A stretch of DNA of 64,000 bases from a virus, in IMG/VR virus record IMGVR_UViG_3300020439_000003, positions 1 to 64,000 of that record. One strand, given 5' to 3'. Positions within the stretch are counted from its first letter, which is position 1. Every line of letters starts with the position of its first letter. This document shows positions 4,035 to 42,380 of this stretch, piece after piece. The notes under the pieces are model-generated. The model was not told the origin of the DNA and did not search any database. It saw only the letters and a program-made list of their open reading frames with translations. The position numbers and the translations under genes were made by a program.

Positions 4035-4042
4035 TATTTATA
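4035..4042 (-). promoter_or_regulatory. T4-type late promoter, perfect TATAAATA
   Basis: The minus strand reads GGCTATAAATAAAC here, an exact match to the T4 late promoter octamer recognised by the gp55 sigma factor with gp33 and the sliding clamp. It sits 40 nt upstream of the fibre start at 3995 and just past a terminator, so the fibre gene seems to be its own late transcription unit. Confidence 0.85.
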
Positions 4043-4052
4043 GCCAAAACAA

Positions 4053-4074
4053 AAGAGGACCCGAAGGTCCTCTT
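4053..4074 (-). terminator. Rho-independent terminator
   Basis: On the minus strand: a perfect 9-bp stem AAGAGGACC / GGTCCTCTT closed by a stable TTCG tetraloop, followed by TTGTTTT. It begins 4 nt after the stop codon of the 75-aa gene and ends the transcription unit that includes the DUF4815 protein, just before the next late promoter. Confidence 0.9.
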
Positions 4075-4078
4075 ACGT

Positions 4079-11987: not shown

Positions 11988-11990
11988 CTC

Positions 11991-13526: not shown

Positions 13527-13548
13527 CTTTTAGAAATTACCTTCTTTT

Positions 13549-13556
13549 TATTTATG
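13549..13556 (-). promoter_or_regulatory. Late promoter variant CATAAATA
   Basis: The minus strand reads ACATAAATAAAAAG, one base off the T4 late octamer. It lies between the stop of the 628-aa gene and the gp8 start, leaving a leader of about 16 nt that contains an AGAAGG ribosome site. The same octamer at the same spacing precedes the fibre gene at 16939. Confidence 0.65.
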
Positions 13557-13559
13557 TGT

Positions 13560-16961: not shown

Positions 16962-16969
16962 TATTTATG
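16962..16969 (-). promoter_or_regulatory. Late promoter variant CATAAATA
   Basis: The minus strand reads CAACATAAATAACAACG. It overlaps the TAA stop of the YHYH gene and lies 23 nt upstream of the fibre ATG at 16939, the same geometry as the gp8 promoter. Confidence 0.65.
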
Positions 16970-18587: not shown

Positions 18588-21500
18588 TTATTGGAAGATC
18601 TGAGTAGGTGTGAATCCACTGATGATAGTGGCACCTGTCTGAACTGTGAGAATCACGGAGTTGGAGTAAGTAGGTTGAGCACCAGCAGCAGTGATTGCTA
18701 CACGGAACTCATCACCATCATCTGCCTGTACGGCAGCGTTAGAAGAGTAAACTGCATTTGTCTGACCTGTGATGTTGACCCAGTTAGTTTCACCATACTG
18801 CTTGCGCTGCCACTGATAGTTCAGTGCAGTGGTTCCGACAGATCCGTCCTCGCTCACGATGAACGAAGCGTCAACGGTGAAGGATGCAGTCTGACCTTGG
18901 TTCACAGTCACGTTAGTGGGTTGTGCGTTGATCAGGATGTAACCAGGTACGATCACGATTGGGTTACCGTCAGCGTCAGTACCTTCACCTGCATAGGTGT
19001 CGAAACCGCCGTTAACATTACCGCCCTCAGGTGCTACGAAGTCATCGGGGACAGTTGTCTCAACTTCAACCACAGGTGCTTCATAACCAATACCAGGGTT
19101 CTTAACCACGATGGAAGAGATTCCCATCAGAGCGCGAACGCGACCGTCGAAACCAGTAGAGGAGATCACGTCCACGTTCGGGCGTGAGGTGTAACCGTTA
19201 CCAGGTGCAGTAATCTGCGCCTTAGTAATTTCACCAGTTTTGATGGTGGCAAGAGCAGCAGCATTGCGACCCTTAACGGTGCCTGTGTACTCGAAGGTAA
19301 TCAAGGAGTTGGAAGACTCAATCAGAGCAACCTCACGAGGATCGCCCTCACCTTCGATTTGCAGGATGTCACCAGCCTCGATCGGAGGTACGACAGTTGC
19401 CGCGATCACGTCAGCGTCAGAACCGATGTAGGAGAAGGCAACGAATGTAGATCCTGCGCGAGGAATCTCAGCGAAGATGATTCTAGAACCAACCAGGTTG
19501 TAACCAACACCAGGTTCCTGAATCACACCATTAAGCGAGACGATGATGTTGTTCTCAGGCAAGATAGTGTTGGACGACACACCTTCCGTCAGAGTCAAGG
19601 AGTAGAAACCACCCTGATACTTCAAGTTGAAGGACGAGCGCAAGGAGTCAAACTCGAAACTGATGTCATCAAGTTGTCTCAGTTTACCCACGTAGTAACC
19701 AATGAATTCGGATCCGATCGTAGGAGGTTCAGTGAACTGAATCTGGTCGGAGAACGCGGTGTAGGCGTAGGTTGCACCAGGAGGTTGCAGCACACCATTG
19801 ACGAACACGAGCAGGTGACCAGCGGGATCTGGGAAGTATGCTTCACCGTTGTTGACGGTGAGTTTGAAGGAAGTTGCAGTGCCATCAAATCCTCGGAAGA
19901 ATCTATCGCAACGACCCAGGAGCGACTTCGCTTGCGTTACACCTGCCTGCCAACCATAGTCGGAGATGATCGACATGTTGCTAGGCCAATCACCCACGGC
20001 ATCTTCCAACCAGATGCGACCAGTGGTGCCGCTGATTGCCTTACCTGCGACCCTACCGTAAGAGGTGTAAGAGGTCTCAGTGACGGAGGAGATGTCTGCA
20101 CGGAAGATTGGGAAGTTGCTAAGGTTCTCAAACTTACCGATAGAACCATTTGCTGCCAGTTGAGGATCGACAGTTGTGGATCCATCTGCTGCCTGTCCGT
20201 ACGGACGCAGGTTCGCGAGCCATACGTTGTGAATGCTGTTGTCAGGATCGTAGTTATACTCAGTGACGATAGCAGTCCAACCAGGTTGTGCGGGGATGGT
20301 GCCTTGGAGCAGGTAAACCAGGTCGCCTTTGTTGAAGTCTCCCAGGAATCCTTGGTCTCTTATGACATTTGTGATCTGACACTGGATTGTCTTAGTCGCA
20401 TGTACGAACTGATTAAGTTCAAGATTCTTGAACCCAGTAGTAGTGATATCAGCGATGTCAAGAATAACGTCAGTGACAGAACCGTAGATAATGTCGCCAT
20501 CAACAAAATCATCTTGCAAGGACTCAATGTCGATCGTGATACGACCACCCGTGTTGCCCACGAGAGCACCAGCAGAGTTTTCATAGAGTGCGATGTCTGC
20601 CTCAGCGCCATTGCCCTTGTTGAAGATCATCTCACCCTGAGCAAATGCACCGCGATCAATGTTGATCAACATGCGCTCAGTCAGAGCACCTTGGACGGTT
20701 GCAGTGACAGCAGAGTCTACACCCACGAGGTCATCGCCAGCGTTAATTATGCCAGTGATATTCTCGATGTAGCAGTTACCTTCGTCAGTGTTATCACCCG
20801 AGAGGACAGAGGTCTGAACAATGAAACCGTAGTTAGAAGGATTGCCATCAACGTTGACTCTCTCGCCATTTGTGAAGCGACCCGAGGCAGATACGAGATT
20901 CGCCTTCTTGTACAGTTTGATGATCTCTGCTTCATTATTTCTAGTTCTGATAACGTCACCACGGCAGTTGGAGCTAGTACCAACAACCACGTCAGCGAGG
21001 TTGAAACCACCACTGATAGGCGTATCAATATCACGAGTACCATATGTAGTGGTCTCACGATTGATGCCAGAACGTACATCAACTTGGAATCTCTGCTGAC
21101 CACCAGTTGAGAGGTCAACATCAAAGTCGCTGTAACGTGCGTCGTGACGAATCTCGCGTGCAATCTCGAAGTATTGAGGAGTTGCGTTCAACACATAGAA
21201 CCAAGACTGACCTTGGAGTCCACGCTCGATGTCAGCCGAAGCGGGCACGTAGGTAAGAACATCACCACGAGAGTAGAAGTTCGGGCGAGTAATCTTGACT
21301 CTGTTCTCTCTTCTCTCGAAACCAACTTCAACGGTAGGAGTGTTAAGGACCAGTTCAGGATCAGTGTTCCAGTCAGTACCCTCATCATAGATGTTTTGCA
21401 GATTCTGAGCGTGAGTCGAGTTGACCCAGATCAGACTATTGTTGGTAGGAGGTGTAGAGCGCGTGAGTGCGAAATTGATTGGATTAGTAGAAGCATCAAT

Positions 21501-24500
21501 TCTAAACTCAGTGGACTCTTGCTCATACTCGAAGCGATACTCAATAGCATCCATCAGAGTATCATCCAGATAACGGAAGTATTCGTTATTTGTACCCCAC
21601 TCAGCAGTGCTGTTCTGATCGTAGAGGATACGCTTGCAAGCCTCAGAGATGCGTAGCAGATAGAAGATCAAGTGCTGTCTTACAACACCCTCGTATGCAA
21701 TGAATTGACCTTCACCATCGAACCAGGTGTTTGCCAGTTTCATAGAACCAGCGTTGCCGCCAGTGTTAAGGTCATAGATGATTGCATCCACCACTACCTG
21801 AGCGAAGGACTCAGGGGCAGCAGTGCCAGGATATTGAGTTGTTACTTCATCAAATGACTTGGCAACGATAGCGTGCTTGTTGAACACCAGGCGACGTGCA
21901 GTTGCACGTTCGGAGAAGGATCCACCACCAAGGGTTTCACTCATCAGATCGAACAGAGTATCAGCAGCAGAGATCACGTTGTAGCAAGTGTACAACTGAT
22001 AGTCAGTATTGCTGTTGTAAGGCGTAGTTCTAGTAACAGTGCTGAGATGAGTCGGCGTAGGTGATCCAGATGCTGCCTTAGCGACAGTATCGATCACGAG
22101 GTCAAACAGAGTCTCGATAGCAGAGGCAGTCTGCTCACAAGTGCTGTTCCAACCACCAGTTGCACCCGTGTCATAAGTAACAGACACGTCACGATGAACC
22201 ATGTCGTTGCTGTACTTGATTGGCCAGATGTTCGGCAGAGACTTGGTGATAGTTCCGTCAGTGATGCTTGCAGGAGTTGCAAGTGTATCATTGACGATAT
22301 CCATCAGAGTTCTCATGGTGGATCTTACGTCATTACATACACCGAAGGTTCCATCGGGAGCACCATCAGCAGTGATGGTGTACTGAGGATCACTGTATGG
22401 GAAGTAATCAAGATCACCATAGAACTTCTGATTATAAGAATGACCACCTTGCTTGGTGATTGTGTCATTCTGCATTACATCAACAGCAAGATCGAACGCC
22501 TTGTTAAGGATCCAAGTGGTCTCAGTTACCTGCGAGGTGACGTGAGCAACGGCAGCAGACTGGACATAAAGTTCAGCAGCATGGAAGACTCTGTTGTTAC
22601 CACCGTATTTCAGGTTGAATACCAATGCACTCAGAATGTCAGTAACGTCATGAACACAATCGATGCTACCAGCAGTAGTAACAGCGTTGTCTTCTGCACG
22701 TACGAACGTATGGGGATATTGCTCACCAGCGGGAGAAGCACCAACGTTAACCGTGATCGTGGTGCCAGTTACACCAGTGATCGCGATAGAATCTTCATAA
22801 TAAGGATCGGTGGTGCGAGGATAGGCGTGCTCAGTAGCATTGCCATCCTTAGTGCAGGTGAACACCAAAGAATGAGGTTGGATATAGATCTGGTTACCAG
22901 CAACCAAGGAGTGAGATCCAATGGTCAGTTCCAACACACCCGAAGCAGGAGTGTAGGTAGCGGCAGTAGGAGTGAAGTTCACACCACCAGTAGTACCACC
23001 GTTGATATTCAGTGAAGGATATTGCTGTTGACCCAGGTAAACTGCTTCCTCAGCAATGAATCGGATGTTTCTATCAATGATGTTAGCAGCATCAATGTAG
23101 CGGTCACGTACAGCATTCTGTTCGTAAGAGCTGGTCTCCACTTCGTCGAAGGATTCACCACCCAGGTCACCACCAGGAGTGCCGTCGCCACCATCAAGTT
23201 CTCTGTAAATATAGAGGTTGTCACGTCCGAATCCATTTCTCATGGTCATGATGCACATTTCCTGTGCAAACTTCATAACCCATTGTGATGCCTCTTCTTC
23301 ACCTTCAACGTGGAGGAGAGTATTATCTTCTGAATTCAGATAGAGTGCAGCAGCATCCCAGGTCTTAGAGTTACCACCCAGACGCATGTCGTGGACGATT
23401 GATTCGATAATATCAACCACATCATCAACACAGTTCTGACGACCGCCAGGAACCTTGAAGTTGATGAACTTAGACATGTCGTTCATGGTATGAACTGCTT
23501 CCCAAGCGATCACATACTTGTTACGCTCGATCATGTCAGCAGCATCCATGAGGCGATCATGGTTAGGACCACTACGAGTCTGATCAGGTGCCTGAGGATC
23601 AATAGTGATCGTGGTGTCACGATACACCTCACGGGTAGTCCAGACTGCAACGTAGTAATCGTCTTGGAATCTACCATCAATACCCAAACCAGCAGCAGTA
23701 GTACCGTTGGTTAGCAGAGTATTGTTGATTGCGTGCTTAACGAGTTTCTTGGTGAACTCAAAGGCGTCCAACATGGCGCTGAGTTCACCTTCAACATGAA
23801 GAATCTGATTGTCTTGGTTGATGTATTGATCCAGGACATATTGGGTAGAAGAGTTACCACCAGTCAGCAGGTCAGTGATGACAGCAGGCAAGATGAACTT
23901 CTTGATGTCTCTGAGGCAATATGGTTCACCATAACCAGGCATCTGCAAGAAGTCAAAACTACGGATTTCTCCGAGAGGTCCTTGAATATCAGCAGCATAC
24001 TTGTCTTGGATATATCCAACAACTTCCTCAGCAATGAAATCGCGGTTTTTCCAGATAGCATCGCCACCATCACGGAATCTATCGCCAGTTGGGCAAAGGA
24101 TGTCAATGATAGTATCAGCAAGAGAACTAATCTCGTTAGTTACCTGGGAAGATGCAGGAGAAGCAAAGTTGTTAGGAATACGAAGGATATCAGTGTACTT
24201 GGCAGGAACAGTGTCGCCATTCTCATCAACCATGGTTCCATAGTTGACCAGATCACTGCTAGTGGTAGTGATTACGTAGTTCATAATCTCTGCCAGTTCG
24301 TTCCATGCGTAGATGGATTGCAGCAGTTCATTACCAACGTAGTTCAGACCACCAGACTTGGTGAGATATCCTCTACCAGAGATCACGCTGTTATAGTTAC
24401 CACCGTAACGAATATCAGCAATGATTGCTTTTAGGATGTACTCTTTGGTGTCACGAATACACTTGTTAGTTCCTTGTTCACTGGTTTCAGTATCGCCAGG

Positions 24501-27500
24501 GATAACGAAGTCAGGATACTTCGCTGCCATCTTACCAACAGCAGTTTCTGAGATCCAATCGAGGTTGAGTTCAAGCATGTCGGCACACTTTCTGTGCTCG
24601 TCACGCGAGAGATCAATATCCTCAATGATGATTTCCTTAGTGGCGTAGTTGACCTTCTTAGCAGTTGCAGCAGAGTTAGTCTGACCAGTGTAAGTGGCAT
24701 ATGCCTCCTCAGTGCTGACAATGATCGACTGCTCCATATCCATACCAAACAGAATATTCTGGTTGTTAGTTGGATAGGTTGTAGTGGGAGTAAAGGTGCC
24801 AGCGTACAGAGACTCGTTGTGAATGATGAAGTTATCAACATAACCTTGGAAGGAGTTAGTGCCATCCCAACCAGCCATCATTCTGAATGGACGCTCAACA
24901 TAGGTGTTAGTGTCAGAGTAGTCACCACCAACCTGTGTACCATTAACAAATACCTTAGTGATACCAGTGGTTCTGGTAACTGCAACGTGAGACCATTGAT
25001 CCTGTGCCATGTTATGAGCACCAGAGATCTGATCAAGTCCGTTGATCCAATACTTAATGGAGTTGTTCTCCAAGTAAAGGACAGGAGATTGAGTCAGAGT
25101 GGCACTCTGAGTTCTAGTATCCCAGAGATACTTGATGCCAGACTGAGGATTGGTAGTAGGACGCAACCACATTTCAATGGTGAAGTCCGTAGTACCAAAC
25201 TTAGTCACATTAGACAGACTATGAGACAGTCCAGTATGAGTCTGGAAGTGTAGTGATTGAGTTCCTGCCTTCTTCTGCAATCCAGTCAGGGTAATCGTAC
25301 CATTAGCAGTCAACTTGGAATTGGTAATGGTCTCTCTGTCAGTGAAGGTGCCAGTAACAGCATTAGTGAACAACCACTTCAAACCAGAGTTAGTTCCCTT
25401 CGCTTCAAAGGATGCGCCAGAGGATAGACCTCTGATGGTGTCACCAGGAATGAAGAATCCATTACCACCACGATCCTTATAGGCAAGCTTGAATACACGG
25501 AGGTTCTCGTTCTCGTTGTATGTACCATCAGTGATAGGACTGAGAGCATTGATAGCATTCAAGTTACCAGCACCAACTGCACCAGCGGCGATTTCAACCA
25601 AGGTATGAATGCCTGCCTGTACGTCAGCACAGTTCTGAATGCTTTCGTTACCACCAGAAGAGTAATTAGGATCGTAATATGCTGCCTCAGTACCACCACC
25701 TTGGAAGATAGCATTGTCAACAGCACTGATGAAGGTGTGGGTATAACCACCACCAGTCGATACAGCGTTTGCGCTAGCAGATACGAAGGTATGAGGATAC
25801 TGCTGACCAGTTGGAGATGCACCAACATTTACAGTAATCGTGGTAGCAGTAACAGCAGAGATTGACAGATACTGACCATTAGCAGGGTCAGATGCACGAG
25901 GATATTGATGGTTAGAACCATTGCTATCCTGAGTACAAGTGAAAGTCAAACTTCCCTGTGCGATAGTGATGTTATCGCCAATGCTCAGCGAGTGAGAACC
26001 GATGGTGAGTTCCAACGAACCCGTTGCGGGGTTGTAGTTTGCGCCAGTAGGAGTGAACTGAACCAGAGGAGATGCACCAACATTAACATCAATGGTAGTA
26101 GCAGTCGTAGCAGTGATGTTTAGAGCAGTGTTGAATGCAGGGTCACCAGTACGAGGATAATCGTGGAAGGTAGCACCACCATCAGAGGTGCAGGTGAATC
26201 TCATCGAGTAAGGTCTGATCGTTACAGAATCAGAAGTTGAGAGACTGTGAGTGCCGATACTGATCGACATAACACCCGTAGAAGGAGTGTAAGTAGCAGC
26301 AGTCGGAGTGAATTGTGCAAGAGTTGTACCAGCAGCACCCAGATAAGGACCTTGATAAGTAGAAGGATCCTTCAACATGTAACCCAGTTCTGGGGTTCTA
26401 GTATTGACCTGTACATAGAGCAGGTTGTTGATAGCACGACGTGCCATCTCGCCCGCCTTTCTAAATGCAGTCAGGGACTCAGCAAGTTCTCCAACCAGAC
26501 CGTTACTAATAGGTGAACCATTAGTGAAATACTTCTTAGCAAATTCGACGATGTTGTAATTACCATCATCAGTAATGTCAGCAGACAAAGCATCGACCAT
26601 CAGACCGATGTCACGACGGCACTTAACTTCGTTAGCGGTGTATTGAGTTGGGATTACCTCGTCGAGGAGGTCAGCAAGGGAACCAGCAAGCAGGATGACA
26701 GAGATGTTATCGCAAAGTGTTTGCAGCGCAGATTGTACGTCAGAGCAGTTATTGGTTCCATAGTTCTGACTGTTAGAACCAGCAGTGCCGTAGTTATTAC
26801 CAGGAGAAGGATCAGCAGTGATACCAGTTCCAGTAGAACCACCAGTGGTTCTCTCGTTGTAGAAGATGTAAGTAACACCATCAACAACCTCAGATCCATT
26901 CAGGTCATTTCTGAGTGCTTGACGCATCAGTTCAGTTGCCTTATCGAATGCAAACTCAGTAGCAGCTGCTTCGTTGTTTACATACAGGAAGTTAAGACCA
27001 TCAGCACTGAAATACTTCTGTGCAAGTTTTCTGGTATATACTGTACCGCCACTGTAAACATCGAATGACAGAGCATCAATGTAGTAACCAATGTCGCGCT
27101 TGCACTTGTCAGCAGAAGGAACTGTCAGAGCAGGATACTCAGCAGTCATCAGAGCGTAAGACTTCGCTTGAATATACTCCTTATTCTTCTGAATCAGACG
27201 ATACGCATCAGCATATCTGGACCAGGCGTCGGTCGCGTTGTCGCCAGGATAGTAGAATCCAGGATGTTCAACAGCAATCTCAGCGTTAGCAAAGTCAACG
27301 ATCTCATCCTTGTTCAGGGAGATCATACGACCAGCATCTTTCCATCTGTTCTTGGAGTCGGTAACAGTGTTGCCATACTCGAAGGTGATAGAACGCAGAT
27401 TGTCACCAGCAGCAAGAGTGCCACCAGTTAGATTCTCGTACTCAATCTCGGTAGATCTAACTTCTTCAAAGTCAAGGAAGTCAGCATTGATTCTTTGATC

Positions 27501-30500: not shown

Positions 30501-33500
30501 GTTGATAGGACCGATTGCTTTGACCGAAGTGGTGGAGTAGGAAGAGTTAGGACGATCAAACTCATCTTCACCAATTTCTGCATTGGTGAATTCAGGTTCA
30601 TGTAGAAGTTTGAATCTAAACTCAGTATCAGAGATAACTTCGCTGATAGTAAACTTACCATCAAACGGAGTCTTGATCACATCAATGAAGGAGTTGTTAC
30701 CAACAGGAGAATTGGCACCCAGTCTTGATGGGTCAAAGTAGTAAGTGATATTAGTAACCTCACCACCAATGGTAAACTTAACCACAGGTGTCTCAGTTGC
30801 AGAGGCCAAACCAGGAGTACCTTCACGTTCAATAACGTTGAAGGAGTATTCCAGCTTGTACTGGTTATCCTGAGAGAATGACAGATAATAACCGAAGTTA
30901 GAAGAATCACTCATATCAAAAATATAAGAGTGATTTCTAGTCAGCATTAGAGTCGGGTGCTTGGATGCAATCTTAACGCCAGCAATACCGCTAGTATATC
31001 CAGGATCACCACTTGCAGTATCCCGTAATCTGTAAGTGAAGTCTCTGGAAGAGAATACTTCCTGAACGAAGAATGAACCATTGAACTCACCACTGTTGAA
31101 TCCTTGTACAAACAAGATATTGCCAGCAGAATAGTTATGAGGAGTTACAGCAGTTGCATAGATCAGGTCAGATCTACCTTCGCTAGTTCTGATGATGTCC
31201 TTATCAAGAGTAACAGTCAGTTTGATAGTCTTGACAGTAGTAACACCGTTAATATCTGCAATCTTAGCATTGTCTGCATTAGGACCAGCAGTAATACTGC
31301 CACCCAAAGATACTACGTCTCCGATGATGAAATCAGAGTCAGAATAGGTATCAATAATAGTTACTCTATACTCTTCTGGTCTGAAAGGTCTAAACCTTGC
31401 ATAGTCAGAGAGTGGATCATATGTACTAACGTAGGACCAGGTGACATTTCCATCAGAAGCAGTACCAGTGGTGTGTACAGGGACAGTAGCACCACTAATA
31501 CCACCAGTGGTTGCCTGATACTTGTTTCTTCCGTAGTAGACGAAATCATTGATTTGATAAGATCTATTGGTTTCCCACTGATCTACCAAAGGAGTAGGCC
31601 ATGCATAATCAGCAAGATTTACTTGGATGGTTCCAGCAGCACTAATGTAGTTCCAAGTTACAGCACCATCAGTTACGATACCGATCTCATGAGTTGGTGC
31701 AGTAGCACCAGAAGTAGCAGTGTTAGTAGCGGCGTAGATCTTACCGTCGCTGTATACCTGATCATTGACGTTATATGCCTTACCTGTCACCCACTCTGCC
31801 TGAGGACGAGAAACAGTAAAGTCAATCTCTTCAATCAGGTTCTCTTGACCAGTAGAGTTTCTGAATCTATCAGTATTGTTAAAGTTACCAAAGATCTTAC
31901 CGATCTTATACTCAGTACCATAACCTGGGTTGTTGATAGGACCAACAGGAGTCTCTACAATCGTACCGTATGCTTGGGTAACGCCCTGAGCGTTGAATTG
32001 TTGAATAACAGTACCCTTATCAAACTTAACGTCTTGATTGAAGGTGAACTTCTTAACGTTGTCCATCTTAGAGTATGCTGCATCTCTAATGTAGTATTTT
32101 GCAATTACATTAGGAGAAATGAGCAGTCTCTTACCGAGAGGTGAAGGTACAGTGGAAGTTTTAGAGGTGTAAGTATTAACTGTCTCTCCAAAGGTATATG
32201 TACCAAAGTTCAGAGTAGACGTTACATCAGAATAGTCGAGAATTTGCAGACCCGAAGAACCTTCACTCCACACTGTAATGACAGGGTTATTCAGGTTGTT
32301 GATGTTGATTTGAGTTGCTTCACTAAACACAATACCCTGAGAACCATCAATCTGATAATCACCACGCTTACTATGGAGACGATCAAACTTAACCATATCA
32401 AGACCAGCATTCACAGTTTCAATTCTGTAACGCTCAGTAGGAACAGTCAGAGAAGAACCAGTGTAAACGGCACGAGGTTCTACGATGATGTCATCAACCC
32501 AACCAATGAAGGAGGTGTTGGTAGCACCAGAAGTGGCGTTAGACAGAACTGCAAGGTCATCCATTGCAATATCTTCTGTTCTAGTAGCAGTACAAACCTG
32601 TACACCATCGAAGTATGCAGAATAGACATAAGAACCAAGGGTGGGTTCTTCCTTAACAAGAACGATATGATGCCATGCCTCAGATACCATTGTGGTGAAA
32701 TAGGTAGAACCCACAGATACCACAGTAGTGCCACCACCACCCTGAGGGGTGATATCGAGGGTGACTTTACCGAAGTTAGGATCACCAACAGTACCATTGA
32801 TAGAGTAGATAACCTTATCGCCATTGTCGGCAATACAGGTGATCATTTCCATCTTAGGATTGTTGCTAGCATGGGTGCCAATCATCTTAACCCACATGCC
32901 GACAGTCCAGTCGTCATTGTTATCAAGGTCAGTCCAATCCAGACGACCTGCTGCTTGCAGTTTCAGTGAAGCAGAACCAAACTTGTAGATAGTATCATCT
33001 CTGAGGATGTTAGCACCACCAGTTACAGTGACAGCACTCTTCTTCTGCTTGGTTGCATCGAAGTAAGTATCAGCACTATCGTTGAAACGATATACAGCAG
33101 TAGGAACAGACTTCTGGATGTTGAGTGGGACAATAATGTCACCAGAGTTGTCAACTGAGTGTGTAGTGGTAGTAAATCCAAGACCATAGTCAGTGTCACT
33201 ATTGACAGAATCCCAAGCACCACGGATGATGTTGGTCTTGTACTGCATAGTGCCGTTGTACTTGAAGTTAAGTGCAACTACTTGCTGATTGTTATCTTCG
33301 TACTTGATGTGGGTAAGAACATTGACATTACCGAATTCATCAAGGCTAACACCAGCATGATTGATAGATTCAAACGAAATACTAGGAGCAATAATCTTAG
33401 AGAAGAACCACTCAGGAGTGCTGAGGGTAAGTCTGACTTGTTCCAGTGCAATCTTGAAGAATGCAACACCATAGTGCTTGGTGCCATTCCACATATCACA

Positions 33501-36500
33501 TACAAAGAACAAATCGTTGTAGGAATCCAGAACAAACTGAGGTCTTTGTACCTGACCACCAGAGACTGCCAACTTCTTGACATAACTCATTTCAATGTTG
33601 GCACCGTCGTAAACCATCTCACCGAACATGAGATCGTTATTGTCTAGATCAATACCAGCAAAAACGATTTTATTGTTACCAATGTAATGCAACTGGTGCA
33701 TTTGCTCACCTTCGCTGTCAGAAGCGAACTTACGCTTCTCTACAACGTCACCTTGGTTATTGAGCTGCATAACCCAGATGTCATCAGGATCTGGGGAGTT
33801 GGTGTCCGTCCAACCACAAATATAGAGTCTCTGCTCGTCATCGAGGTAAATATCACCTGCATAGTCGCGACGAGTCGCACCAGAGACACCAGCAATCTCT
33901 TTCTGGAATCTGATGACACCTTCGGGGTTATTTGCGTTATCGAGACCAGATTCGTACTTGACAAGCAGAATATCAGGATTGTATCCAGAAGTGCTCTGAG
34001 ATTCGGTTTCACCGAGCACATAGATCAAATGATTGTCCTCAGAAGTCTCGTCGAGGTAAATCTTCTTGAAACGTGCAGTTTTAATACTAGAAGAGGGAAG
34101 AAGACTTCTATCCCAAATCAGACCACCAAGATCGGAGAATTTAGCAAGGAAAGCAGAAGATTCGCCATTTGATTGAGTCAGTTCACCACAAACGTAAGTA
34201 GTACGGTCAGAAGCAGTCTGAACGTCTATGATTTCAAATGTAGAGGCATTAGTGCCACTCTCAACGTATTGGTTGACCCAATAGTAAGTTTTCTTGAATT
34301 GTTGGGGATGAGAAACTCGGATTTGAGGAACATCCTCAATATCGTAGTCAAAACCAGAATTGATGATATCAACACGATCAACTTTACCAGTAGTGGTATC
34401 CAGGATGATATCAAGCTCAACGTCCTGTCCAGAGTCAGTAATGATCTCATATGTCGGAGGAATTGACTCATTGTAACCAACACCGATCTGATCAACACTA
34501 ATTGACTCAATACCAGTCACAACGGACATGTAGAATCGCTTATTGGTGTTATCAGTGATAACTTTCGACGAAACGATAACTTCGTCTTGTGCAATCAGTT
34601 CATGATCATTAGAAGTGGTGATTTTGCCGTATGGCTCATCATCAATGATTTCCTTACGATATGCAGAGATAGTTTGACCAGTAACAGACTCAATTTGAGC
34701 AGAAGCACCAAATCCATCAGTTCCAGTGTTATCGAAGAACAAAGTATCGTTAACCTGATAAGAAACGCCAGGGTTCTCGATAACGAATCCGTCAATCTGT
34801 GCAGACTCGAATTTAGTAGTATTTTCAACTTCAATATCCACTCTGGACTCAGTAGAGACCGTTGGGAAGTAATCATAGATCTGCAATGCCGCTTCTTCGG
34901 TCATTGCTTGCAGAGTAGCAATTTCAAGGGGACTGATGATGCCGTCACCGTCAATATCTTCAATTTCAAAGATAATTACTTCACCTTCACGCTCAGTAAC
35001 GAGTTCATCGGATCTTTGGTTGGGTTGACGGTCAATATCGATGTCAACGTTGGCATAAGGGTCTCTGAAACGAGAAACATCAAGAGGGATGTTTTCTTGG
35101 GTTGCAGATTGACTCAGGTTCCAAGTATCAACAACAGAGTTGAACTGAGGACCAACAATATAAGGGAATACAGGAAGACCAGCGTCAGATTCGTCAATAG
35201 TTACGAAATAAGCGTAAGTACCAGCAGGATAGTCAGGAGTCTTACAGAAACGACCGTTATAGGGGTCTAGGTCGCCTCTCTGGAAGTCATATTCGTAATC
35301 ATTGATGAAAGTACCAGCAGGATAGGTTGCAAGCAGCGGACCATCCGTTCTAGCAGGAGTTGGGTTGGTATCAATGTTATATACGACCTCATCTTTCAAT
35401 TTGTAAGAAGAACGCATTCTTCTAAGACCACTGTTCTGATCAGTCGGGTCAATGTAACCGTAAGGACCATAAATCGGGTTACCATCAAACGCCCAACCAA
35501 TAATTGGAGAGTGTGCCTCGTTTTGACCAACTTCTCGGAAGTTTTGAGTCTGAGGATCAAGAACTACGTTGTCACCAACCACATAACGGAGTTCTTTCGG
35601 GTCGGAGACGTGTGCGTATTCACCACCATATTGGTTATTGAAACCAGTGAACACATAACCACGAGCAACGTCATATTTGGAGTTAAGTTCATATTCAAGG
35701 TTCTTGTTCCACTTGAATACAGTTGCTTCAAAGGTTGCAAGTTGACCAACTGCTTCCAGACGAACAGTAGTGTTACCTTGGGTATATCCAACACCTTTGT
35801 TAGTGATTTGGATAGAAATAACCTTACCTTTGTCTTCACCAAGGGTTCCGATGATAGCAGTTGCCTGAGCACCAAATCCATCACCGTTAATGTACACAGT
35901 AGGAGCAGTGGTATAGGCTTCACCAGAGTTAATGATAGCGATCGATACAATACGACCGTTAATCACAATAGGTTGTGCCAGAGCACCTTCACCAGAGTTC
36001 AGTTTGATCTCAGGAGTAGAAGTGTATCCAGTTCCAGCAGAAGTCAGTGAAACACCAGAAATAGGACCACGAACTTGTGCAGTAGCAAGAGCACCAGTGC
36101 CGCCACCACCAGTAATAGAGATAGTAGGTTGAGAAGTATAACCAGTACCAGCATTCTCTACCAGAATACGAGTTACACGACCATTAGTCACAACTGCCTG
36201 AGCAGTTGCACCAGAACCACCACCACCAACGATAGAGATCAGAGGTTGAGCAGTATACCCAGAACCCTGATCGGTAACATCGATAGAAAACAGTGAACCG
36301 TTAACAGTAACGCTAGCAGCAGCACCAGTACCACCGCCACCAGAAATTTGAAGTGCAGGCTTGTTACCAGCATCATAATCGATACCATTATTGGTGATAG
36401 CGATTGCAGTCAAAGGACCAAAGGTCACATAGTCCTTAGACTTGTAAGACCAGGCAGCAACACCGTTTACCCAAGAACCAACGGGGTTATTAGGTTGAAT

Positions 36501-39500
36501 AGTAGTTCTAGTAGAAACCGTAGATACAGTTCTAGGGAATCTAAGCAGTTTACGCTGGTTACCAGGAATTAGAGCAGAACCTTGGAAAGGACCGATCTTA
36601 TAGTTGGGTAGACCAGAGGCAGCAACGTAAACGTAGTTATTATTGAAGAAAGTATTCTGAATGTTTGAAGTGAACAGAGATACTACTTCGTTAATAGAGT
36701 TAATAGTAGACTTACCTCTATTCAGGTCAACAGACAAGAGAATGTTACCCTGAGGAGTGATCTGAGTCGGTACAGGGATAGCATAAGTGAAGGTAAAGTC
36801 GTCAAGACGAGAAGTTACTTCGTAAGTGCCATTGTAGATAGCAGGGTTAGCACCATAAATGGTAACTTTATCTTCTACAAGCAATCCGTGCGGGTTATCA
36901 CAAACGACGGTAGCAGTTTGGTTATTCGATCCCCCAGGAGTAATGCTTGTAACCTTGATGAGTTTCTTAACGTTATACAACCAGGATTGAAGGCGTTCAT
37001 CAGTGTCAGTGCCACCCAAAGCAGCCACATTAAGCTTATCGCCTGGTAGATAGTAAGAACCAGTGTCTTCAAGAACGGTAGTACCTGCTTCTGCAATACC
37101 GAGAACACGAAGTTTGACTTCGGTATCAGTTCCTTTGTTAACCCAGACAAAAATGTCCGAGTGAATCGTCGTGCCAGGGTCCCAGTCCTCAACTACACCG
37201 TTTTTAGAACGAGTACACTCAATAAACTGGTTCAGTGATTTTTCTTTGTACTGAACAACTTCACTATCATCAATAATGATCGTACCGTTCTTCTCTGGCC
37301 ACCCAATAGTTGAGTCAACGGTAATTATGTTACCATCGGTGGACAAAGGTTCAACAAGAGTCGTTTTATAAGGAATCTTGAAGCTTCCGCTCAGAGTTTC
37401 CTCTGAAATTGCTAATTCGTAAATAGTATCTGTACCTTCGATGATCGAAATTACGTTTTCGATCAAAACAGAGGCATTTTTGATGTTTTGGTCAACAGGA
37501 TCCTCAATTTGGATCAACTGTGCGTTTGGCAGATTGATAGGATCGCCAGAAATCAGTTCTGCACGCAGAATAGTGTCAACAACCCAAGATGCTGCCGAAG
37601 GAGTGACCAGTTCGTCTCTGGGGTAGTAAACATCAACTTCTTCACCGAACAGAATCTTAAATAGGTACTGTGCAGCAGTTTTCGTACCCTTTGAGATGTA
37701 GAAATCCTTGATCGTCTTAATAACTTGCACAGGATTGACCTGGGCATAGTCAATGTTGATCGTAGGCATGTATTGATCACGGAATTTGTCAAATACACGT
37801 CTAATGATCTGAGCGTCTAGGTTATGAACAACAGATCCAACAGTATGGTTGGTTTGAGCAAGTTGCTCTTCCTTAGCATAGACCTGATTGCCAAAATTAT
37901 CAAATTGGACAACATCAGATACACCACGGGCACAACCACGCAGTGAAGAAGGTTCGTAGTCTTGACCAGCAGACCTAATAAGGCAACCAGTCACCTCACC
38001 GAATCCAACATCACAAGATGCCTGTGCAGCAAGTGGTTCAGCGATGTAAACCTTAGGAGGATTCTCAGTAGAATACCCTTCACCGAAGTTAGTGATGTTA
38101 ATGTCAGTAATTTCACCGTTAAAGATGGTTGCTGCTGCCATTGCACCAGTACCACCAATAGATTCACCCAGAGGACCCTTACGATCGTCTACGATGTATA
38201 CAGAAGGAGCATCGGTATAACCAGAACCACCTGTCAGCAGGTTGATATTGGTAACACTACCGTTTGCGACAGTAACATCAAGAACCTGAGCACCAACGGG
38301 TTGTACAACTCTTGCTCTGGGTGCTGTTTGATAACCACGACCTCTATTAGTGATAGTTACAGATACAACTTGCCCGTCAGGTGACACAGAGCAAGTTGCT
38401 TCGGCATCAATACCATCTTCGGGAGCAGGATCGATGTAGATAGTAGGAGGATTGCTATAACCAAGACCATATTTGGTTACAGTGATAGATCCATCAACCA
38501 GACGACCCTCAGAATCGATTGTAGGGTCACTGCACTCAGCACCACCAGGGTTGATGAAGGTAATTGCAGGAATAAAGTCGTAACCAGAACCAGAGTTGGT
38601 GATCTCAATACCAGAGACTTGTCCTGTCGTATCATCAACAGTAATTTTAGCAGCAGCACGAGAACCATTGATCAGATCGCCAGGTTCAGTGATACGAACA
38701 ACAGGAGGGTTGTATGCAGTATAACCCTGACCACCGTTGATCAGTTTAACGTTCTTAATACCGTTGACCAAAGACCTGGCCGCGGCACCAGTTCCCTTTC
38801 CAGTAGAAGAGAAGATGGATACCTTAGGTGCAAAGTTCAGTCTATAACCACTACCACCCTTCTTGATAGTAATTGCTTCAATTTCACCATTAGCGCCAAC
38901 ACGAGTTACTGCCTCAGCACCCAATCCAACAGAAGGAGACACATACTCGATAGAACGAATATGGAATGTATCTTGTCCAGAGATGTTAACAAAGAATTTG
39001 ATTCTAGTGTTGTTATCAGTCAACACATAATCATCAAACGGGCGTTGCAGCACACCGTTACGGTTGATGATCAGACCAATTTCAGCAATAGGAGCATAAG
39101 GGAGGTTATCATACTGAACCACCATCGAATCTCCACCAATGAGATTTTCGAGAGGGGGATGAACCAGTTCTTTAATGACAGAATCAGCAAAACCGATGTA
39201 GTAAAGAATCTGAGTCAGTTCTACCTGGTCATTACCAGTTCTAGCACGAGGTGCAGTGGTAAAGATAATCTGAGAGCCAGTAATAGTATAGTCAACATCA
39301 GGAATCAACAGATCACCATATACAGTAACTGCAAGGTGTGCTGCTGAGACAGGTGAGACAGGAGTACCAAGGAATTTAAGATCAAAGGTAGTTCTACTAC
39401 CATCGAAGTCAGTCCATGGAGATTCTAGTGCTTGTCTCTTCTTATTAAATTCTTGTAGGGAGATACCTGGGGTCAGGATTACGTCAGGACCACGAACCGT

Positions 39501-39824
39501 CTGAGCATAATAGATAACTTCATTATCAATCATCACAGATCCATCCTGAGGGATGAATCCATCAATTTGTTCTACTTCAATCGTATCAATTTCAGCATCA
39601 ACATCCTTGATCACCGTCGTGCTAGAAGTCAGCAGTTTGGGATCATAGGCATCAAGATCAAGATACCTAAGCAAATTGTTCAGGATGTTATAGGAACGTC
39701 CTGTCTTCTCTTGTGACTTGTAATATTCAAAGAGAAATTGTACGAACTGCTGATCTTCTTCCCGAATAAATTCAGGGAGTTGGTCAGCAACTCTGTCCGA
39801 GATGTTAATTCTGTCTGCAAACAT
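18588..39824 (-). CDS. Giant baseplate protein, putative gp7 equivalent with huge insertions
   Basis: 7078 residues in one open frame of 21.2 kb. Three short segments resemble T4 gp7 in order: residues 15-60 (LPEFIREEDQQFVQFLFEYY), 700-735 (DFYISKGTKTAAQYLFKILF) and 3555-3595 (SYVIKSQIPINRWKQQILE then HPTGF). Between and after them are GSGY/GGGGSGA repeats (about 300-600, 1135-1375, 3280-3335), a YHYH-like domain (1400-1565), a beta-propeller-like stretch (1845-2215), LamG-like domains (2240-2465 and 4845-5015), two chitin-binding-like repeats (2660-2800), seven C-x-D helical repeats (4240-6040) and a C-terminal Ig-like domain. It follows gp6 by 5 nt, the position of gene 7 in T4. The gp7 call rests on remembered T4 sequence and synteny. 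Confidence 0.7.
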   Translation of the reverse strand: MFADRINISDRVADQLPEFIREEDQQFVQFLFEYYKSQEKTGRSYNILNNLLRYLDLDAYDPKLLTSSTTVIKDVDAEIDTIEVEQIDGFIPQDGSVMIDNEVIYYAQTVRGPDVILTPGISLQEFNKKRQALESPWTDFDGSRTTFDLKFLGTPVSPVSAAHLAVTVYGDLLIPDVDYTITGSQIIFTTAPRARTGNDQVELTQILYYIGFADSVIKELVHPPLENLIGGDSMVVQYDNLPYAPIAEIGLIINRNGVLQRPFDDYVLTDNNTRIKFFVNISGQDTFHIRSIEYVSPSVGLGAEAVTRVGANGEIEAITIKKGGSGYRLNFAPKVSIFSSTGKGTGAAARSLVNGIKNVKLINGGQGYTAYNPPVVRITEPGDLINGSRAAAKITVDDTTGQVSGIEITNSGSGYDFIPAITFINPGGAECSDPTIDSEGRLVDGSITVTKYGLGYSNPPTIYIDPAPEDGIDAEATCSVSPDGQVVSVTITNRGRGYQTAPRARVVQPVGAQVLDVTVANGSVTNINLLTGGSGYTDAPSVYIVDDRKGPLGESIGGTGAMAAATIFNGEITDINITNFGEGYSTENPPKVYIAEPLAAQASCDVGFGEVTGCLIRSAGQDYEPSSLRGCARGVSDVVQFDNFGNQVYAKEEQLAQTNHTVGSVVHNLDAQIIRRVFDKFRDQYMPTINIDYAQVNPVQVIKTIKDFYISKGTKTAAQYLFKILFGEEVDVYYPRDELVTPSAASWVVDTILRAELISGDPINLPNAQLIQIEDPVDQNIKNASVLIENVISIIEGTDTIYELAISEETLSGSFKIPYKTTLVEPLSTDGNIITVDSTIGWPEKNGTIIIDDSEVVQYKEKSLNQFIECTRSKNGVVEDWDPGTTIHSDIFVWVNKGTDTEVKLRVLGIAEAGTTVLEDTGSYYLPGDKLNVAALGGTDTDERLQSWLYNVKKLIKVTSITPGGSNNQTATVVCDNPHGLLVEDKVTIYGANPAIYNGTYEVTSRLDDFTFTYAIPVPTQITPQGNILLSVDLNRGKSTINSINEVVSLFTSNIQNTFFNNNYVYVAASGLPNYKIGPFQGSALIPGNQRKLLRFPRTVSTVSTRTTIQPNNPVGSWVNGVAAWSYKSKDYVTFGPLTAIAITNNGIDYDAGNKPALQISGGGGTGAAASVTVNGSLFSIDVTDQGSGYTAQPLISIVGGGGSGATAQAVVTNGRVTRILVENAGTGYTSQPTISITGGGGTGALATAQVRGPISGVSLTSAGTGYTSTPEIKLNSGEGALAQPIVINGRIVSIAIINSGEAYTTAPTVYINGDGFGAQATAIIGTLGEDKGKVISIQITNKGVGYTQGNTTVRLEAVGQLATFEATVFKWNKNLEYELNSKYDVARGYVFTGFNNQYGGEYAHVSDPKELRYVVGDNVVLDPQTQNFREVGQNEAHSPIIGWAFDGNPIYGPYGYIDPTDQNSGLRRMRSSYKLKDEVVYNIDTNPTPARTDGPLLATYPAGTFINDYEYDFQRGDLDPYNGRFCKTPDYPAGTYAYFVTIDESDAGLPVFPYIVGPQFNSVVDTWNLSQSATQENIPLDVSRFRDPYANVDIDIDRQPNQRSDELVTEREGEVIIFEIEDIDGDGIISPLEIATLQAMTEEAALQIYDYFPTVSTESRVDIEVENTTKFESAQIDGFVIENPGVSYQVNDTLFFDNTGTDGFGASAQIESVTGQTISAYRKEIIDDEPYGKITTSNDHELIAQDEVIVSSKVITDNTNKRFYMSVVTGIESISVDQIGVGYNESIPPTYEIITDSGQDVELDIILDTTTGKVDRVDIINSGFDYDIEDVPQIRVSHPQQFKKTYYWVNQYVESGTNASTFEIIDVQTASDRTTYVCGELTQSNGESSAFLAKFSDLGGLIWDRSLLPSSSIKTARFKKIYLDETSEDNHLIYVLGETESQSTSGYNPDILLVKYESGLDNANNPEGVIRFQKEIAGVSGATRRDYAGDIYLDDEQRLYICGWTDTNSPDPDDIWVMQLNNQGDVVEKRKFASDSEGEQMHQLHYIGNNKIVFAGIDLDNNDLMFGEMVYDGANIEMSYVKKLAVSGGQVQRPQFVLDSYNDLFFVCDMWNGTKHYGVAFFKIALEQVRLTLSTPEWFFSKIIAPSISFESINHAGVSLDEFGNVNVLTHIKYEDNNQQVVALNFKYNGTMQYKTNIIRGAWDSVNSDTDYGLGFTTTTHSVDNSGDIIVPLNIQKSVPTAVYRFNDSADTYFDATKQKKSAVTVTGGANILRDDTIYKFGSASLKLQAAGRLDWTDLDNNDDWTVGMWVKMIGTHASNNPKMEMITCIADNGDKVIYSINGTVGDPNFGKVTLDITPQGGGGTTVVSVGSTYFTTMVSEAWHHIVLVKEEPTLGSYVYSAYFDGVQVCTATRTEDIAMDDLAVLSNATSGATNTSFIGWVDDIIVEPRAVYTGSSLTVPTERYRIETVNAGLDMVKFDRLHSKRGDYQIDGSQGIVFSEATQININNLNNPVITVWSEGSSGLQILDYSDVTSTLNFGTYTFGETVNTYTSKTSTVPSPLGKRLLISPNVIAKYYIRDAAYSKMDNVKKFTFNQDVKFDKGTVIQQFNAQGVTQAYGTIVETPVGPINNPGYGTEYKIGKIFGNFNNTDRFRNSTGQENLIEEIDFTVSRPQAEWVTGKAYNVNDQVYSDGKIYAATNTATSGATAPTHEIGIVTDGAVTWNYISAAGTIQVNLADYAWPTPLVDQWETNRSYQINDFVYYGRNKYQATTGGISGATVPVHTTGTASDGNVTWSYVSTYDPLSDYARFRPFRPEEYRVTIIDTYSDSDFIIGDVVSLGGSITAGPNADNAKIADINGVTTVKTIKLTVTLDKDIIRTSEGRSDLIYATAVTPHNYSAGNILFVQGFNSGEFNGSFFVQEVFSSRDFTYRLRDTASGDPGYTSGIAGVKIASKHPTLMLTRNHSYIFDMSDSSNFGYYLSFSQDNQYKLEYSFNVIEREGTPGLASATETPVVKFTIGGEVTNITYYFDPSRLGANSPVGNNSFIDVIKTPFDGKFTISEVISDTEFRFKLLHEPEFTNAEIGEDEFDRPNSSYSTTSVKAIGPINTIKLISPGGFYKKLPVVSDIASDRKIEKVRISNGGTEYASGVYTQVPILGDGEGGLVQITVEVDDEIGSGTITDVALTDPGKGYTTASIDVDGIEGILGPTLSGSGAELEVVIPAEGSGAAVFLTGRQIGKIKTLKNNEFGYGYSHDYTLRPEIAFPINLQLFNTSILSQIKITNPGAGYTSAPSVIITGGGGSGAEAEAVVKNNRLSEILIKNPGAGYSSQPVVTLKSEFTYVVNLDLNYLQFNFPHGITTGAEVQFRADDIGSEVGVLPKPSSVGLTSLSSTQTYYAIAGNVNGLEADQLRFALTQVDAESGNFITFLTQGDGRQVLLTEVFGGQAEAVVETSRFLEGEELFQGESYELASAFGIVSENEGWQIQPKILKVTNPRGDFVVGGKVQGVISRASGLIDNINIAKGVLNIDALTKTPGRFIDDVGKPSEIVQKIQDSFFYQNFSYVIKSQIPINRWKQQILENNHPTGFNMFGQLELTGGKDISGRKVVAGFTKQVNINEYTNVNQITSFGAAQPIYSTFNNSEVLFRKKRLTNSEEILTSIVKKIDDISAQFDGSTKQFPLRVEGENLIVKDNQLVVTLNGVIQAPGESFQIVGNNIVFAEPPRPDSKVVYRNVEFDIMPITRLNLNTIGGIFPELGDTVNGFTSEARARVVATGATSIDVVDIQGGPFDLNERIDVGRTGFSALIGSIDDSITKLYLENVGGTFTQQALGGVRVTGQTTGATATVFTVNPTDYTIDVTDMANGYFERGEAVTFFGLQYGGDILNVDSVNYKTIFEFGETVTNLDGDKAIIEETNQDLDGNIDDKLVLSKTSGTAEFETGIYDIGLQDIIYSASSNIAARITSTSPYRDPIVNINLVRPVGGEAGWNSFSEGDKIQGPGGTASGEVVRVDQEASPPILYYLKGSVADFQDGDTIQRYTVDTTTGSRILDNMTEVVSGEVRLGDVVDQLIINKGSTFFGLVFERLISLTNANVILDDISKTTITPTLIDDADQRINADFLDFEEVRSTEIEYENLTGGTLAAGDNLRSITFEYGNTVTDSKNRWKDAGRMISLNKDEIVDFANAEIAVEHPGFYYPGDNATDAWSRYADAYRLIQKNKEYIQAKSYALMTAEYPALTVPSADKCKRDIGYYIDALSFDVYSGGTVYTRKLAQKYFSADGLNFLYVNNEAAATEFAFDKATELMRQALRNDLNGSEVVDGVTYIFYNERTTGGSTGTGITADPSPGNNYGTAGSNSQNYGTNNCSDVQSALQTLCDNISVILLAGSLADLLDEVIPTQYTANEVKCRRDIGLMVDALSADITDDGNYNIVEFAKKYFTNGSPISNGLVGELAESLTAFRKAGEMARRAINNLLYVQVNTRTPELGYMLKDPSTYQGPYLGAAGTTLAQFTPTAATYTPSTGVMSISIGTHSLSTSDSVTIRPYSMRFTCTSDGGATFHDYPRTGDPAFNTALNITATTATTIDVNVGASPLVQFTPTGANYNPATGSLELTIGSHSLSIGDNITIAQGSLTFTCTQDSNGSNHQYPRASDPANGQYLSISAVTATTITVNVGASPTGQQYPHTFVSASANAVSTGGGYTHTFISAVDNAIFQGGGTEAAYYDPNYSSGGNESIQNCADVQAGIHTLVEIAAGAVGAGNLNAINALSPITDGTYNENENLRVFKLAYKDRGGNGFFIPGDTIRGLSSGASFEAKGTNSGLKWLFTNAVTGTFTDRETITNSKLTANGTITLTGLQKKAGTQSLHFQTHTGLSHSLSNVTKFGTTDFTIEMWLRPTTNPQSGIKYLWDTRTQSATLTQSPVLYLENNSIKYWINGLDQISGAHNMAQDQWSHVAVTRTTGITKVFVNGTQVGGDYSDTNTYVERPFRMMAGWDGTNSFQGYVDNFIIHNESLYAGTFTPTTTYPTNNQNILFGMDMEQSIIVSTEEAYATYTGQTNSAATAKKVNYATKEIIIEDIDLSRDEHRKCADMLELNLDWISETAVGKMAAKYPDFVIPGDTETSEQGTNKCIRDTKEYILKAIIADIRYGGNYNSVISGRGYLTKSGGLNYVGNELLQSIYAWNELAEIMNYVITTTSSDLVNYGTMVDENGDTVPAKYTDILRIPNNFASPASSQVTNEISSLADTIIDILCPTGDRFRDGGDAIWKNRDFIAEEVVGYIQDKYAADIQGPLGEIRSFDFLQMPGYGEPYCLRDIKKFILPAVITDLLTGGNSSTQYVLDQYINQDNQILHVEGELSAMLDAFEFTKKLVKHAINNTLLTNGTTAAGLGIDGRFQDDYYVAVWTTREVYRDTTITIDPQAPDQTRSGPNHDRLMDAADMIERNKYVIAWEAVHTMNDMSKFINFKVPGGRQNCVDDVVDIIESIVHDMRLGGNSKTWDAAALYLNSEDNTLLHVEGEEEASQWVMKFAQEMCIMTMRNGFGRDNLYIYRELDGGDGTPGGDLGGESFDEVETSSYEQNAVRDRYIDAANIIDRNIRFIAEEAVYLGQQQYPSLNINGGTTGGVNFTPTAATYTPASGVLELTIGSHSLVAGNQIYIQPHSLVFTCTKDGNATEHAYPRTTDPYYEDSIAITGVTGTTITVNVGASPAGEQYPHTFVRAEDNAVTTAGSIDCVHDVTDILSALVFNLKYGGNNRVFHAAELYVQSAAVAHVTSQVTETTWILNKAFDLAVDVMQNDTITKQGGHSYNQKFYGDLDYFPYSDPQYTITADGAPDGTFGVCNDVRSTMRTLMDIVNDTLATPASITDGTITKSLPNIWPIKYSNDMVHRDVSVTYDTGATGGWNSTCEQTASAIETLFDLVIDTVAKAASGSPTPTHLSTVTRTTPYNSNTDYQLYTCYNVISAADTLFDLMSETLGGGSFSERATARRLVFNKHAIVAKSFDEVTTQYPGTAAPESFAQVVVDAIIYDLNTGGNAGSMKLANTWFDGEGQFIAYEGVVRQHLIFYLLRISEACKRILYDQNSTAEWGTNNEYFRYLDDTLMDAIEYRFEYEQESTEFRIDASTNPINFALTRSTPPTNNSLIWVNSTHAQNLQNIYDEGTDWNTDPELVLNTPTVEVGFERRENRVKITRPNFYSRGDVLTYVPASADIERGLQGQSWFYVLNATPQYFEIAREIRHDARYSDFDVDLSTGGQQRFQVDVRSGINRETTTYGTRDIDTPISGGFNLADVVVGTSSNCRGDVIRTRNNEAEIIKLYKKANLVSASGRFTNGERVNVDGNPSNYGFIVQTSVLSGDNTDEGNCYIENITGIINAGDDLVGVDSAVTATVQGALTERMLINIDRGAFAQGEMIFNKGNGAEADIALYENSAGALVGNTGGRITIDIESLQDDFVDGDIIYGSVTDVILDIADITTTGFKNLELNQFVHATKTIQCQITNVIRDQGFLGDFNKGDLVYLLQGTIPAQPGWTAIVTEYNYDPDNSIHNVWLANLRPYGQAADGSTTVDPQLAANGSIGKFENLSNFPIFRADISSVTETSYTSYGRVAGKAISGTTGRIWLEDAVGDWPSNMSIISDYGWQAGVTQAKSLLGRCDRFFRGFDGTATSFKLTVNNGEAYFPDPAGHLLVFVNGVLQPPGATYAYTAFSDQIQFTEPPTIGSEFIGYYVGKLRQLDDISFEFDSLRSSFNLKYQGGFYSLTLTEGVSSNTILPENNIIVSLNGVIQEPGVGYNLVGSRIIFAEIPRAGSTFVAFSYIGSDADVIAATVVPPIEAGDILQIEGEGDPREVALIESSNSLITFEYTGTVKGRNAAALATIKTGEITKAQITAPGNGYTSRPNVDVISSTGFDGRVRALMGISSIVVKNPGIGYEAPVVEVETTVPDDFVAPEGGNVNGGFDTYAGEGTDADGNPIVIVPGYILINAQPTNVTVNQGQTASFTVDASFIVSEDGSVGTTALNYQWQRKQYGETNWVNITGQTNAVYSSNAAVQADDGDEFRVAITAAGAQPTYSNSVILTVQTGATIISGFTPTQIFQ
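22730..22985 (-). repeat. Third copy of a module of about 85 residues in the giant gene
   Basis: FTPTAATYTPASGVLELTIG ... VFTCTKDGN ... YPRTTDP ... TTITVNVGASP. It is clearly homologous to the two tandem copies near 25810-26325, but is separated from them by about 2.8 kb of helical repeats. Confidence 0.7.
25810..26325 (-). repeat. Two tandem copies of the FTPT...NVGASP module
   Basis: Two adjacent copies of about 86 residues, beginning QFTPTAATYTPSTG and QFTPTGANYNPATG. Each has IGTHSLS or IGSHSLS, a (R/T)FTC or LTFTC strand, a YPR motif and the ending NVGASP. The tandem arrangement indicates internal duplication within the giant gene. Confidence 0.75.
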
Positions 39825-41966: not shown

Positions 41967-42380
41967 TTACGTTCTCTCTAAGAGGAATTCAACAGTTTGA
42001 GTTTGCGGTTGACCAACGATTGCATATTCAATCGCTACGTCAATACTGTATTCATCATCAGAGAGGTTCACGTCAATGTTTTCGACCTCAACACGAGGTT
42101 CTAAACGTTGTATGGTATTACTTATCTCATCTCGCAGGTCTTCTGCGGTGAAAACGTCAAAGGGTTCAAATAATAGTCCTTTGACTCTTGATCCAATGTC
42201 AGGTTGATAGGGGCGTTCACCAAAAACCGTCAGTATCAGGTTTCTGATCGACTGCTTGATAGCATTTTCATTCTTCACCGTCGAGAAGTCTTCGGTATTA
42301 GGGTTTGCTTCAAATGAAACCGCTAGATCCTTAAAACCTCGGGAGAAAAACTTTTCTGATCGAAACCTGTACGACGGCAT
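41967..42380 (-). CDS. 25: Baseplate wedge protein gp25
   Basis: 137 residues, the usual length for gp25/GPW-like proteins. Visible family marks are the helix NENAIKQSIRNLILTVFGER, the PDIGSRVKGLLFEPFD block, and EPR at 94-96 (RLEPRVEVE), the motif of T6SS TssE and gp25. The protein joins gp6 and the sheath end in the baseplate core. It is followed by gp6 with one base between stop and start. Confidence 0.92.
   Translation of the reverse strand: MPSYRFRSEKFFSRGFKDLAVSFEANPNTEDFSTVKNENAIKQSIRNLILTVFGERPYQPDIGSRVKGLLFEPFDVFTAEDLRDEISNTIQRLEPRVEVENIDVNLSDDEYSIDVAIEYAIVGQPQTQTVEFLLERT

Follow-up and report, generated by a model that had tools for sequence, protein, structure and literature searches.

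A probable gp7-type baseplate wedge protein of 7,078 residues with phycobiliprotein-like domains in a T4-like cyanophage

A single gene of 7,078 codons in a T4-like cyanophage (Kyanoviridae) is very probably that of the gp7-type wedge protein, in which a small core carries a large cargo of added domains, among them seven phycobiliprotein-like globin domains. The gene lies in the first 64 kb (the window, the whole stretch of DNA analysed here) of a 109,554-base IMG/VR virus record that is possibly a fragment. The coordinates of the gene, its parts and its neighbours are given in Table 1.

Table 1. Features of the giant gene and of the surrounding baseplate cluster (positions in the window; residues of the giant protein).
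Feature	Residues	Position	Strand	Remarks
gp8		11991..13526	(-)	PF09215 E 3e-16
628-aa protein		13560..15446	(-)	no gp7 core segment
gp9/gp10-like connector		15446..16939	(-)	PF07880 (T4 gp9/10 N-terminal domain) E 7e-9; phrog_677
535-aa protein, second YHYH domain		16965..18572	(-)	PF14240 E 7e-37
Giant gp7-type baseplate wedge protein (probable)	7,078 aa	18588..39824	(-)	open frame; phrog_701 match over most of length
C-terminal extension	3594-7078	18591..29045	(-)	
Phycobiliprotein-like domain R7		21603..21917	(-)	Cys lost
Phycobiliprotein-like domain R6		22452..23108	(-)	CVHD; split by beta insert
Phycobiliprotein-like domain R5		23220..23564	(-)	CVDD; copy that was folded
Phycobiliprotein-like domain R4		23706..24089	(-)	CLRD
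Phycobiliprotein-like domain R3		24252..24605	(-)	CIRD; PF00502 Phycobilisome 29.5 bits, cut-off 22.2
LamG/concanavalin-like domain	4870-5006	24807..25217	(-)	PF13385 E 2e-15
Phycobiliprotein-like domain R2		26418..26729	(-)	CRRD
Phycobiliprotein-like domain R1		26895..27227	(-)	CKRD
Core segment m3	3535-3593	29046..29222	(-)	T4 gp7 ~845-895
Insertion slot B, 2,787 aa	748-3534	29223..37583	(-)	YHYH domain, CBM5/12-like motifs
CBM5/12-like motif (one of two)	2677-2707	31704..31796	(-)	PF02839 E 1.2e-4, below cut-off
YHYH domain	1397-1544	35193..35636	(-)	PF14240 E 6.5e-29
Core segment m2	660-747	37584..37847	(-)	T4 gp7 ~690-759; PF23786 Baseplate_wedge E 9e-5, below cut-off
Insertion slot A, 598 aa	62-659	37848..39641	(-)	chain of beta domains, GxGYT-type repeats
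Core segment m1	8-61	39642..39803	(-)	counterpart T4 gp7 helical domain ~643-689; direct match weak
gp6		39830..41965	(-)	PF21379
gp25		41967..42380	(-)	PF04965

The giant gene and its locus

The frame begins with ATG and contains no internal stop. With gp25 and gp6 directly upstream, it occupies the position of gene 7, as the initial annotation had proposed; the YHYH protein, the gp9/gp10-like connector and the 628-aa protein follow, so that three genes separate it from gp8. A frameshift or an assembly join, either of which that annotation had named as fatal to its reading, was looked for. The frame was intact, and no sign of a join was found in comparisons with S-WAM1 and with near-identical IMG/VR contigs. 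Slot A, slot B and the C-terminal extension measure 598, 2,787 and 3,485 residues here versus 597, 2,795 and 3,136 in S-WAM1, and contigs 96-99% identical span the N-terminal portion as well as region 5070-5545 of the giant protein, a single one (IMGVR_UViG_3300020403_000061) spanning both.

The gene cluster was also claimed to lack gp9 to gp12, which for gp9/10 is not wholly so, a PF07880 domain being present; the giant gp7 may have the fibre role suggested for it. The S-SZBM1 homologue of the 628-aa protein is likewise named 'baseplate wedge initiator' yet carries no gp7 core segment; the 628-aa gene, considered as the real gp7 on account of this shared name, was ruled out by the absence of the core segments. 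A YHYH domain occurs both within the giant protein and in the adjoining gene, and beta repeats are common to the giant protein, gp8 and other tail proteins; this sharing is domain traffic inside the baseplate cluster.

The gp7 core and its insertion slots

In profile searches, three segments matched, in order, parts of the C-terminal third of T4 gp7. HMMs of m1, m2 and m3 were built from non-T4 relatives only and run against five T4-type gp7s together with shuffled and reversed decoys. The m2 model matched T4 residues 725-759 (28 bits, iE 1e-7; best decoy 4.5 bits) and the m3 model T4 residues 865-890 (13-15 bits, iE ~1e-3; best decoy 0.3 bits), both scoring above every decoy and keeping their order in each of the five T4-type gp7s. 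The m1 model was weak alone, matching 4/5 of the T4-type proteins at 1.6-7.1 bits (best decoy 2.1), in the expected position (T4 652-689). Support for m1 came through the compact relatives, whose alignment matched T4 gp7 644-824 with an hhalign probability of 97.7%. In the reverse direction, a profile of the five T4-type gp7s, searched against the 542 frames of at least 60 codons in the 109.5-kb record, matched the giant protein only (residues 706-732 and 3563-3590). No second gp7, which would have spoken against the assignment, was found among these frames. The initial annotation had placed the T4 counterparts within about 250 residues of one another, and this was borne out: m1 to m3 span ~252 residues in T4 (~643-895) and ~3,585 in the giant protein.

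Could the giant protein instead be an unrelated fibre gene in the place of gene 7, with the segments present by chance? The weakness of m1 by itself, and the many GenBank records that say merely 'structural protein', would agree with this. However, m2 and m3 beat all decoys and are collinear in the five T4-type proteins, all three segments recur in compact relatives as small as 503 aa, and no other frame of the record matches gp7, which together make a chance origin extremely improbable.

The picture of a gp7 'blown apart' held in part. Descent from gp7 and a core split by giant insertions were upheld, but the part of T4 gp7 with a counterpart is confined to its C-terminal third. None was found in the giant protein for T4 residues 1-640; the Pfam gp7 models PF21427, PF21428 and PF21456 match T4 and neither the giant protein nor the relatives scanned, and the Pfam search gave no match to T4 gp7 domains V and VI in the giant protein. 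The compact relatives pf16 and Ps15 (503-523 aa) likewise lack the N-terminal part, which was not taken as defining, and therefore a compact gp7 core that grew fits better than a T4 gp7 blown apart. Structure prediction, proposed as a check, did not recover the gp7 fold: in an AlphaFold model of residues 1-760 the core helices were of low confidence, and Foldseek retrieved no gp7 and nothing of note. The giant protein resembles T4 gp7 in its locus after gp6 and in the order of core segments m2 and m3, probably together with m1 (T4 643-895), and differs in lacking the T4 N-terminal 640 residues and in carrying ~6,900 residues of additional domains.

Proteins at the same locus form a size series. 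At its short end are those of Stenotrophomonas phage Ps15 (503 aa), pf16 (523), Melnitz-2 (896), phiM12 (1,007) and HTVC008M (1,016), with another of 528 aa; those of cyanophages include S-CRM01 (1,454), S-PM2 (3,048), P-HM1 (4,446) and Syn9 (6,076), and giant homologues occur in S-SZBM1 (6,619), S-WAM1 (6,737) and P-RSM6 (8,573, longer than the present 7,078). Further members measure 4,225, 4,307, 6,817 and 7,351 aa. Growth ranges from 0 to ~600 residues in slot A, from 231 to ~2,800 in slot B and from 17 to ~4,900 at the C-terminus, and the core is spread through phages of many hosts. The gp7 of pelagiphage HTVC008M (11506-14556) carries the annotation 'head closure Hc2', a likely naming error, perhaps because its beta repeats are shared with the 'head closure Hc2' PHROG.

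GenBank already calls the S-WAM1, S-SZBM1 and P-HM1 homologues 'baseplate wedge initiator' or gp7, and S-SZBM1_208 (6,619 aa) was detected in virions by LC-MS (71 peptides, 13.5% coverage; PMC9146016 Table 1), so that the giant gp7 as such is already known by annotation; we found no prior description of the slot architecture. These 'baseplate wedge initiator' proteins (S-WAM1 AOV61558, S-SZBM1_208 and P-HM1 gp7; phrog_701) are direct homologues with the same architecture, AOV61558 being 82% identical to the giant protein over the first 800 residues, and the present protein is a member of their family that differs in length and cargo alone.

By analogy with T4, the three-segment helical core would sit beside gp6 and gp25 at the gp7 place of the inner baseplate and have the corresponding role in assembly. 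The remainder is domain cargo, added in both internal slots and in the C-terminal extension, which may loop outward as a peripheral baseplate or a fibre-like apron for adhesion. The modules of this cargo are beta-repeat, YHYH, LamG and CBM-like domains, together with the seven phycobiliprotein-like globin domains of the C-terminal extension. The AlphaFold model of slot A had no significant PDB match.

Phycobiliprotein-like repeats in the C-terminal extension

The seven phycobiliprotein-like domains, of ~110 residues each and one of them split, lie within residues 4207-6070. A phage-only profile made from 23 phage copies, with phycobiliproteins excluded, found phycocyanin alpha as its best PDB match (E 4e-8), and all 60 matches listed were phycobiliproteins or close relatives. 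Singly, 10/23 of the phage copies matched PF00502. When one stretch of the window was searched against all of PDB, 13 of the 14 matches at E <10 were phycobiliproteins; the reversed R3 sequence, used as a control, gave no phycobiliprotein match in PDB. At the level of sequence profiles, the repeats are phycobiliprotein-like.

Similarly, a template-free AlphaFold model of the repeat (56 copies from this window and IMG/VR contigs; pLDDT 86, pTM 0.81) retrieved phycobiliproteins as 49 of its best 50 PDB folds, with TM reaching 0.72 when normalised to the query length and a best Foldseek E of 0.08, the E-values singly being not significant. By this prediction the repeats have the globin-type phycobiliprotein fold. 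Against viral models, the good matches were cyanophage and uncultured-phage tail or structural proteins, none of the named ones being called a phycobiliprotein.

The Cys and Asp of the bilin-attachment site are largely kept. Among 113 non-redundant copies, a conserved Asn is present in 100%, Asp in 94% and Cys in 89%; Cys and Asp occur together in 100/113, and the full CxRD motif, with its Arg kept, in 31/113. In the window the corresponding counts are 6/7 and 4/7, and cysteine is ~3x denser within the repeats than elsewhere in the giant protein. In the phage-only profile, the Cys and Asp align with the bilin-attachment Cys of phycocyanin and its Asp, which we take to be Cys-84 and Asp-87. The repeats therefore share with phycobiliproteins (PF00502; phycocyanin alpha, phycoerythrin beta) a predicted globin fold, the bilin-site Cys and Asp and the conserved Asn (Asn-47 region of phycocyanin). 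They differ in being tandem ~110-aa domains inside a tail protein and in the variable motif Arg. Since the domain (~110-125 aa) is shorter than a full-length phycobiliprotein (160-177 aa), we call it phycobiliprotein-like and do not file it as a phycobiliprotein.

The 5070-5545 region was matched in 343 phage records, of which 342 are named cyanophages, Prochlorococcus phages included; the remaining record is that of an uncultured 'Marine' virus. Where gp7 is smaller (S-PM2, S-WAM2, S-CAM7, ACG-2014f), repeats occur in large ORFs other than gp7, several of which are annotated as tail proteins. One such ORF, S-PM2p218 (S-PM2 158000-182000), contains 16 annotated tRNA genes on the same strand while its frame is open. 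A scan of genome contigs, whose reach is close relatives, found no bacterial relative of R3.

The most likely ancestors of the repeats are cyanobacterial phycobiliproteins or bilin-binding globins. If short helical segments had merely converged, this would explain a sequence similarity of only ~60 residues and Foldseek E-values that are weak singly, but phycobiliproteins fill the listed matches of independent tests, whether or not these use sequence alignment, and the reversed control gave none; moreover, the fold match extends over the entire domain and the spread is confined to cyanophages, so that we consider convergence without common descent improbable. We found no paper linking phage tails to phycobiliprotein domains in a search largely confined to literature outside subscription journals, and these domains of giant gp7 are apparently undescribed so far.

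Structural module or bilin-binding domain

Outside the window, the record encodes a CpeT-like bilin lyase of 163 aa (81388-81822 of the record), whose nearest PDB match is 5hi8 (E 0.0012), that is, cyanophage CpeT (PhiCpeT, a T-type bilin lyase), of whose family it is a member. The link of CpeT to the repeats is drawn here solely from co-occurrence. In 25 cyanophage genomes, repeats and CpeT were found together in 20 and both were absent from 5 (S-CRM01, P-TIM68, S-CAM9, P-SSM2 and ME01). The CpeT proteins of ACG-2014d and ACG-2014f were missed by the Pfam model and recognised only by a purpose-made phage CpeT profile, with which the five repeat-less genomes were also negative. The naive Fisher p, ignoring kinship, is 2e-5. 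The joint label needs only ~3 changes on the gp6 tree, however, so that independent support is thin, and because several positives were picked through the repeats themselves, the genomes were not sampled at random. Bilin reductases (PF05996; 6/24 genomes) do not track the repeats. In two phages a tail ORF with repeats follows shortly downstream of cpeT (1.4 kb away in S-PM2; in S-WAM2 its first repeat match is ~3.2 kb away).

The repeats are rather probably purely structural, a globin-like helical spacer once taken from a phycobiliprotein and now without chromophore, and they could serve merely as helical building blocks. The bilin motif has a variable Arg and has lost its Cys in some copies, the repeats sit amid ordinary adhesion modules (LamG, CBM, YHYH), and they occur in Prochlorococcus phages though the hosts lack phycobilisomes. 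Against this purely structural role stand the Cys and Asp, which are among the most conserved columns, the density of cysteine in the repeats, and the presence of CpeT, which tracks the repeats where bilin reductases do not.

Because the repeats keep the bilin-site Cys and Asp, bilin binding is a serious possibility, and we propose tentatively, from these residues, that the repeats may bind a bilin, perhaps with the help of the phage CpeT. A stronger form, in which they would be true virion biliprotein domains loaded during infection with host or phage bilin via the phage CpeT, is possible though rather unlikely. The conserved site and the distribution of CpeT (20/20 repeat genomes vs 0/5 repeat-less ones) favour it, as does cpeT upstream of the tail ORFs of S-PM2 and S-WAM2; the small number of label changes and the non-random panel weaken it. 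The classical target of T-type lyases is Cys-153/155 of the beta-subunit and not the CxRD cysteine, and we know of no CpeT-class enzyme that serves the latter. CxRD globins, on the other hand, are able to bind bilins without a lyase (PMC10151467).

The baseplate core protein has grown at fixed slots from ~500 residues to more than 8,500, and intermediate forms survive today. If bilins were attached, with phage CpeT help, to the repeats in giant gp7 and other tail proteins, virions of T4-like cyanophages would be pigmented. We regard pigmented virions as a speculative prospect; they would give the phage cpeT its own substrate, and could supply a light sensor for light-dependent adsorption. That such bilin domains are the sensor behind light-dependent cyanophage adsorption is doubtful. 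P-HM2, which has six repeat matches, fails to adsorb in darkness (PMC7112961); this is a lead only, host physiology being an adequate alternative. The repeats in tail proteins offer a cheap, concrete test of the CpeT target and of why some cyanophages need light to adsorb.
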